A DNA stretch of 25,508 nt from positions 1 through 25,508 of the IMG/VR virus record IMGVR_UViG_3300023500_000025, one strand, 5' to 3'. Position numbers and translations under genes: made by a program. The notes beneath the pieces are model-generated. The model did no database searches and was not told where the DNA came from. It worked only from the letters and a program-made list of their open reading frames with translations. Source of the stretch: a virus. Below are positions 24,055 to 25,508 of this stretch, in pieces (the first letter of the stretch is position 1; each line of letters opens with the position of its first letter).

Positions 24055-25508
24055 TAAATACCCGGCAGTCCTGTTTCTATTTTCATGTTCATCTCATCCA
24101 CTTTATTTTGGCGCTCTGCATTCACTTTGCGATCACCACTGGCTATTTTTTCTAGCTCTAAGTTAATTTTTTCAATCGATATATTGTTATCAGCAGACAG
24201 CTTCATTACTTGAGTTTCACGGTCTAACTGCTTCATACCCCTTTCATGTGCGCGTGATGCTTGGCGATCATCTAATTCTGATTGATGCTTTTGTTTTTCT
24301 AAATCCATCTTAGCCACTTCATAAGGGGTCATGCCTTGGTCAGGCTGGTTTTTTTGTTGCTCTAGCGCGGCTTGTCTAATTTCTTCTATTTCATCATCGG
24401 TCATCACTACTTCATCGGCCGATAGTTGAAACGATTGCACTACTTTTCTAAACAATGCAGCAGACTTCAGCATGGCACCAAACACGGGGTGGGCCGCAAA
24501 CTGCATGAGCTGCATTAAGTTTTGCGCCTGCATTTCTTTAACCATTAACACAGAGCTACCACGCGCTTTAACGTTGTAATCTCCCTTTATGGTTTCATCA
24601 CTATTAAACTGCATATTCCAATCATAAAACCGTGGGATAATGGTCATGGTGATGTTGTCATCGTAATTTTTAACGGCTTTTCTAAACTCTACATTGCTGC
24701 TGTTTGCCCAAATACTCGCGCCCGTTGCGCTGCCTTGCACCATTGATGGTGGCGCTTGGTCGTTGCCAGGTTGCAAGCTGGGTAAGTTGGTTTCAATATC
24801 GGCCAATGACATAGCTTTATCAAAAATAGCCATTAGCTCATTTTGGCGGCTGGGTATATCAAAGGTGCTAAACACATGGTTATTAGGTATATTGCGAGCC
24901 GCTGTTTTTTTAAGCCAAATCTTCTTACCTACTATTTCATTTTTTCCATTGGCTGGCTCTACCGCATCCATATCAATCAGTATTTGAGGGCCAACACTTA
25001 AACCACCATTTTCTAGCACTCCACGCCATGCCGCATTGGCAGCACTTTGTGAGTTAGCCATTTGATACGACACACCAAAACCAAATATACTGGTTTTATC
25101 TTCTTCCCAACAAAACACGCTATAAGGGTTTTCTTTGCTTTCAATGGGGTTTATCACGGCTTTTAAAACATGCGAGCCACAAAACCAAACAATGCCTGCA
25201 AATAGAGGCTCCCCTTCGTCATCGTCATCGTCATCGTCATCGTCATCCCCTTCGTCATCGTCATCGTCATCGTCATCCCCTTCGTCATCGTCATCGTCAT
25301 CGTCATCCTCTTCGTCATCGTCATCGTCATCTTCATCGTCACCCTCACAACCACACGCTTCTAGCTCCCCTTCGTCATCGTAATCGTCATCGTCATCGTC
25401 AAACTCACAACCACACGCTTCTAGCTCTTCGTGGTCTATGTCTCCGTGGTATTCCCACACTTCATAGCGATTGTTATCATTAATAGTTGTTATGCCGCCC
25501 ATGGCTCT
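24054..25508 (-). CDS. Portal protein, 5' end cut off by the window edge
   Basis: The reading frame is open to the end of the window, so the true start lies outside; the in-frame ATG at 25502 is internal. About 484 residues are visible, numbered here from that ATG. N-R-Y-E-V-W-E-Y-H-G at 11-20, W-F-C-G-S at 106-110, and S-Q-S-A-A-N-A-A-W-R (151-160) before G-P-Q-I-L-I (171-176) match podovirus portal proteins. The C-terminus is a long charged coiled coil (about 375-470). The protein would form the dodecameric ring at the packaging vertex. Residues about 34-97 are a very unusual run of aspartate between two otherwise ordinary portal segments, with the octapeptide E-L-E-A-C-G-C-E present twice. 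Confidence 0.85.
   Translation of the reverse strand, partial: RAMGGITTINDNNRYEVWEYHGDIDHEELEACGCEFDDDDDDYDDEGELEACGCEGDDEDDDDDDEEDDDDDDDDEGDDDDDDDDEGDDDDDDDDDDEGEPLFAGIVWFCGSHVLKAVINPIESKENPYSVFCWEEDKTSIFGFGVSYQMANSQSAANAAWRGVLENGGLSVGPQILIDMDAVEPANGKNEIVGKKIWLKKTAARNIPNNHVFSTFDIPSRQNELMAIFDKAMSLADIETNLPSLQPGNDQAPPSMVQGSATGASIWANSSNVEFRKAVKNYDDNITMTIIPRFYDWNMQFNSDETIKGDYNVKARGSSVLMVKEMQAQNLMQLMQFAAHPVFGAMLKSAALFRKVVQSFQLSADEVVMTDDEIEEIRQAALEQQKNQPDQGMTPYEVAKMDLEKQKHQSELDDRQASRAHERGMKQLDRETQVMKLSADNNISIEKINLELEKIASGDRKVNAERQNKVDEMNMKIETGLPGI
25211..25402 (-). repeat. GATGAC hexanucleotide array coding for poly-Asp
   Basis: CGTCAT on the plus strand (GATGAC on the coding strand) repeats in blocks of about four to six units separated by short Glu-Gly codons. 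The blocks repeat with periods near 30 bp at 25211-25342. A second, shorter block lies at 25367-25402. All changes are multiples of three, so the portal frame stays open. Confidence 0.9.
25344..25427 (-). repeat. Duplicated 24-nt segment flanking an Asp block
   Basis: Bases 25344-25367 and 25404-25427 are identical and 60 bp apart. Each codes for E-L-E-A-C-G-C-E. They show that a unit made of this octapeptide plus an Asp run was duplicated before or during expansion of the Asp runs. Confidence 0.9.

Follow-up and report, generated by a model that had tools for sequence, protein, structure and literature searches.

A tandem GATGAC array appears to have lengthened an acidic wing loop in the portal protein of an uncultured phage

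The window analyzed here, 25,508 bp in length, is the entire IMG/VR virus record IMGVR_UViG_3300023500_000025. Its last open reading frame (24054–25502, minus strand) is cut by the window's end, with the 5′ end lying beyond it, and encodes the C-terminal two thirds of a phage portal protein. The translation matches positions 230 to 555 of the 560 in the phrog_332 profile (E 1.5e-25), and tblastn recovers the portal of Pseudoalteromonas phage vB_Pun_Y3 (3e-47), as well as those of Roseobacter phages and Puniceispirillum phage HMO-2011. The protein is not filed under SU10_portal (PF23899) because its score, obtained with the partial protein, falls below the curated cut-off (23.5 versus 30 bits). 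Since the gene of the window phage is split over two contigs (see below), a full-length homologue (L044) was modelled with AlphaFold as a monomer (pLDDT 77, pTM 0.67). This model has the wing, stem, clip, and crown of the portal fold, and Foldseek matches it to the N4, DEV, and SU10 portals (E 1e-14 to 1e-17) and also to the T7 portal. By its profile, tblastn, and structural matches, the gene is thus an HMO-2011/N4-type portal of an uncultured phage, in line with the original prediction, and its homologues imply that the ring would be dodecameric (12 subunits).

The portal gene is followed on the minus strand by an acidic ORF of 296 aa (22896–23786), which precedes the capsid gene and matches only phrogs of unknown function; by position, it is a possible scaffolding protein. 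The capsid (phrog_1357) and an SU10_adaptor are encoded on the window, and a terminase large subunit adjoins the N-terminal half of the portal on the second contig (in L075). This order is the same as that of vB_Pun_Y3 (terminase, portal, ORF of ~295 aa, N4-gp56-type capsid, adaptor).

Within the portal ORF, on the minus strand, lies the acidic GATGAC array that had been predicted. The hexamers occupy 25216–25341 and are organized into 30-bp higher-order units of the form (GATGAC)4-5 GAAGGG; TRF reports the 30-bp period at 25222–25337 (3.9 copies, 97%) and finds the 6-bp period again at 25372–25401. A further level of order exists at 25306–25427, where two copies of a 60-bp unit (TRF, 2.0 copies, 91%) each encode ELEACGCE followed by an acidic block. 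The original prediction described this feature as a duplicated octapeptide with two Cys-Gly-Cys motifs; the motif is indeed present twice, but the duplicated unit is 20 aa long and joins ELEACGCE to an acidic block of the F(D)nEG type. The array is far from a chance product of composition, in that (GATGAC)3 has eight matches in the window and none in 100 dinucleotide shuffles. An ORF encoding poly-Ser on the plus strand (25135–25383) was dismissed as a by-product of the array.

The codons of the loop record how the array arose. GAT and GAC alternate in all 35 adjacent Asp-Asp codon pairs, whereas the portal outside the loop has 20 GAT and 4 GAC codons; GGG glycine codons are confined to the array. 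Because selection for Asp would not impose such alternation, it points to slippage or duplication at the level of DNA, and we infer that slippage and tandem copying of the hexamer produced the array. All three units (6, 30, and 60 bp) are multiples of three, so the reading frame is kept and, as had been proposed, length can change without a frameshift. Tandem duplication may be common in this genome: a minus-strand ORF at 14471–15616 carries a 66-bp duplication (2.1 copies, 98%) and a perfect 18-bp array of 2.7 copies, at 15003–15139 and 14495–14542.

The whole expanded loop spans 25194–25442 on the minus strand (coordinates counted from the ORF start at 25502) and comprises 83 aa, including 44 Asp and 15 Glu, between YEVWEYHG and IVWFCG. 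We gathered homologous portals from viral contigs and bacterial genomes and read the loop over one aligned stretch. The equivalent loop measures 22 to 49 aa in 45 homologues, and the aligned stretch, at 97 residues in the window, has a median of 44 (SD 5.3, maximum 63) among 104 other distinct loops, a set that takes in the truncated row from the second contig (L002). Compared with close homologues (40 residues), the extra length amounts to ~57 aa. The vB_Pun_Y3 and HMO-2011-type portals belong to the same family (phrog_332; 34.5% and 31% identity after the loop), but their loop stretch is 40 to 50 residues long and lacks a tandem array. A loop of fixed, identical length, which would have spoken against a variable array, was thus not seen; the loop is much shorter in every homologue.

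Homologous loops are themselves acidic, with a median D+E content of 29% against 16% across the whole protein; in 25 of the 45, the loop is among the 5% most acidic windows of the protein to which it belongs. A close relative, L090, has the short acidic loop ACGCEEYDEDDPMDEAEG and reads YEIWEYHGPMDKEDLIACGCEEYDEDDPMDEAEGVVWFCG across the loop stretch. ACGCE occurs as a single copy in homologues (ACGCE in L044, LEACGCE in L105). From these alignments, both the motif and the acidic character are ancestral in the portal family, the motif appearing twice in the window because the 60-bp unit was duplicated. As such, the poly-Asp segment is far longer than its counterparts but, rather than having been inserted into a neutral place as first proposed, would be the expansion of a loop that was already acidic. 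Cys-Gly-Cys was considered as a new metal site and rejected as a novelty specific to this portal, given that relatives have one copy of this ancestral motif and do not conserve it strictly.

Searching the PDB directly by sequence, with only the window fragment as query, was unproductive, and a profile search was needed to place the loop. In the L044 model, it lies between a strand (327–336) with a short helix (338–343) and a second strand (358–365). The profile alignment puts it at approximately residues 330–343 of DEV gp80, which fall inside the DEV wing (272–351) and before the stem, which starts at 376 (PMC10925440). We therefore place the loop, on model and alignment, in the wing domain between two wing strands, rather than in the clip or crown. 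The DEV gp80 (9bgm), N4 (9lbz), and SU10 gp6 (7z44) portals share the fold by profile and/or Foldseek, with the loop falling in the wing, ahead of the first stem helix; in DEV gp80, however, the connection is only ~12 residues long and has no acidic array. The model of the window protein is poor overall (pTM 0.38), with residues 38 to 88 mostly below a pLDDT of 50, and the loop is accordingly predicted to be disordered. Such predicted disorder argues against a folded acidic mimic of DNA.

Within the portal core, indels are concentrated mainly in this same wing loop. In pairs of portals sharing 75 to 99.5% identity, 114 core indels fall in bin 340, 21 in bin 300, and 8 elsewhere (the folded core being residues 40–600 of L044, with the remaining indels at the two termini); a coarser count gives 17.3 indels per 1,000 aligned residues at the loop versus 0.63 elsewhere. 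These pairs overlap and derive from few clusters, and loop length varies in only two of seven clusters, by one to three codons. Judged from these alignments, the loop appears to tolerate changes in length. Smaller acid-coding hexamer runs are found in the same loop elsewhere, namely, (GACGAG)4 in L132 and (GATGAC)3GAAGG in L003 and L005, which represent a distant portal lineage; these have only three or four units and lack the 30- and 60-bp higher-order copies. The exact 23-base motif of the array is present in seven viral contigs and lies in the portal loop in three of them, two of which are near-identical. Three viral contigs (L006, L007, and L008) with no sign of a portal have a conserved 171-aa ORF that ends in DDDDDDEGDDDN, encoded by the GATGAC motif.

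The missing part of the gene is most likely present in IMGVR_UViG_3300009408_000033 (22,651 bp; L002, L075, and L076), which starts inside the same array and continues through the N-terminal half of a portal (phrog_332 positions 25–231, E 3e-16) into the terminase large subunit. Because the two phrog_332 matches (25–231 and 230–555) fit together and the combined gene order equals that of vB_Pun_Y3, the two records most likely represent, on this comparison, a single genome of ~48 kb that was divided at the array; the genome of vB_Pun_Y3 is 48.9 kb. The second contig also encodes a DNA methyltransferase and an integrase-family protein (L076, 8944–11379), a combination that suggests a temperate phage.

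In the stretch where the window and the second contig overlap, all differences lie inside the array, and the substitutions affect four codons (positions 25309, 25332, 25342–25343, and 25382, spanning 25309–25382 on the minus strand; E/G, E/D, G/F, and Y/D for window/L002). In addition, L002 encodes 8 Asp in the third 30-bp unit and the window 10, so that L002 either lacks 6 bp at this point or has one or more additional units. Beyond the last difference, the 126 bases at 25383–25508 are identical in both contigs and end exactly at the window's end; the two share exactly one 126-mer and no 127-mer. Judging from assembler behavior, such a 126-base overlap would be expected where two alleles meet in a single k=127 assembly graph. 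The pattern suggests that two alleles split one such graph, and it makes a single sample, albeit indirectly, the likely source of both contigs. An excess of differences in the array over its flank was rejected as a sign of faster change, in that the identical flank by its nature extends 126 bases from the last difference. The left end of L002 was also considered as an exact branch of the graph at the edge of the array, an interpretation that was dropped because the bases do not fit a simple branch.

Both contigs are short-read metagenome assemblies, and array length and allele differences could in principle be products of assembly or sequencing at a contig end. The array lies 81 bases from the end of the window, the other contig breaks inside it, and an erroneous path through the repeat could account for the substitutions seen in the copies of the window. 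However, the array is carried from both sides by two contigs in one reading frame, and its longest exact internal repeats (57 bp in the window, 90 bp in L002) are shorter than 127, making each path unique at k=127. Moreover, homologues match both the flanks and the ancestral motif, and other portals contain smaller versions of the array. We therefore regard an artefact as improbable, although this challenge to the original prediction is only partly excluded: the array itself is supported, but its exact total length may be wrong. The differences in four codons and in the third unit are consistent, at the level of contigs, with the predicted variation, and they suggest natural variation of the array.

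Our preferred reading, which we consider probable, is that slippage expanded the array in a tolerant acidic wing loop, where it is mostly tolerated and may have a modest electrostatic effect. Starting from a short ancestral loop such as that of L090, the GATGAC hexamer would have been extended by slippage, a 30-bp block of hexamers copied several times, and a 60-bp block with the ACGCE motif duplicated. Each portal subunit would thereby carry, between two wing strands, a disordered tether of strongly negative charge, and the array would persist and keep changing because the loop is the indel-tolerant place of the portal core. A mild electrostatic effect could consist of steering nearby DNA or of influencing wing contacts with scaffold or ejection proteins. 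Partners for the loop exist in principle: in P22, the scaffold is reported to contact the portal at its wing (PMC13386823), and in DEV, the wing is surrounded by DNA and the ejection protein gp72 (PMC10925440).

These reported contacts would also fit a reading in which the long loop is itself selected. Repeat expansion would then supply the length, and the loop, as a charged brush on the wing, could dock a scaffold or ejection protein, act on packaged DNA by repelling or guiding it, or bind cations. Most homologues keep the loop acidic, suggesting selection on some property of it, such that its charge may matter more than the word "tolerated" implies; independent hexamer-coded acid runs are present in the same loop of distant portals, and the acidic 296-aa ORF, a possible scaffold, follows the portal. 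Against this, a comparably long run is found in none of the 104 other loops, and great length is thus not needed by the family, and the codon-perfect alternation points to recent copying of DNA rather than long-term selection on amino acids. For cation binding or a DNA-mimicking role toward a partner, both raised in the original prediction, charge is the sole support. We consider a selected long loop unlikely. A bolder version, in which the array is a selected, fast length-changing dial on the wing, with several lengths coexisting in populations and the brush tuning packaging, ejection, or portal incorporation, strikes us as a long shot.

Least probable by far is a contingency-type locus, at which array length would adaptively switch portal behavior between strains or virions. 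The hexamer and 30-bp units do alter length in frame, and the third unit differs between the contigs, but in-frame repeats in a disordered loop would produce graded rather than on/off change, and what is seen is two alleles, with neither an allele spectrum nor a phenotype. In contingency loci with phase variation, a change in length switches expression or function.

With coding microsatellites in general, the array shares a hexamer unit, higher-order copies, in-frame length change, and apparent allele differences (here between two assembled contigs), but it differs from the usual case in its place, which is an essential DNA-translocating ring and not a surface or tail protein. We found no matching case in the open-access literature on poly-Asp portals or phage microsatellites. 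Portals are tightly constrained rings, yet one of them here holds a codon-perfect microsatellite, placed in a wing loop where indels already appear to be tolerated. The loop offers an apparently naturally varying site for testing portal-wing charge against assembly and packaging. For databases, the case indicates that a coding repeat can split one phage genome into two records that resemble separate viruses.

Elsewhere on the minus strand of the window are two large ORFs. One (528–7574) encodes a 2,348-aa polyvalent protein similar to DarB-like antirestriction families, and the other (8232–11735) encodes a 1,167-aa protein with a PBECR3 nuclease-like domain (Pfam E 4e-24).
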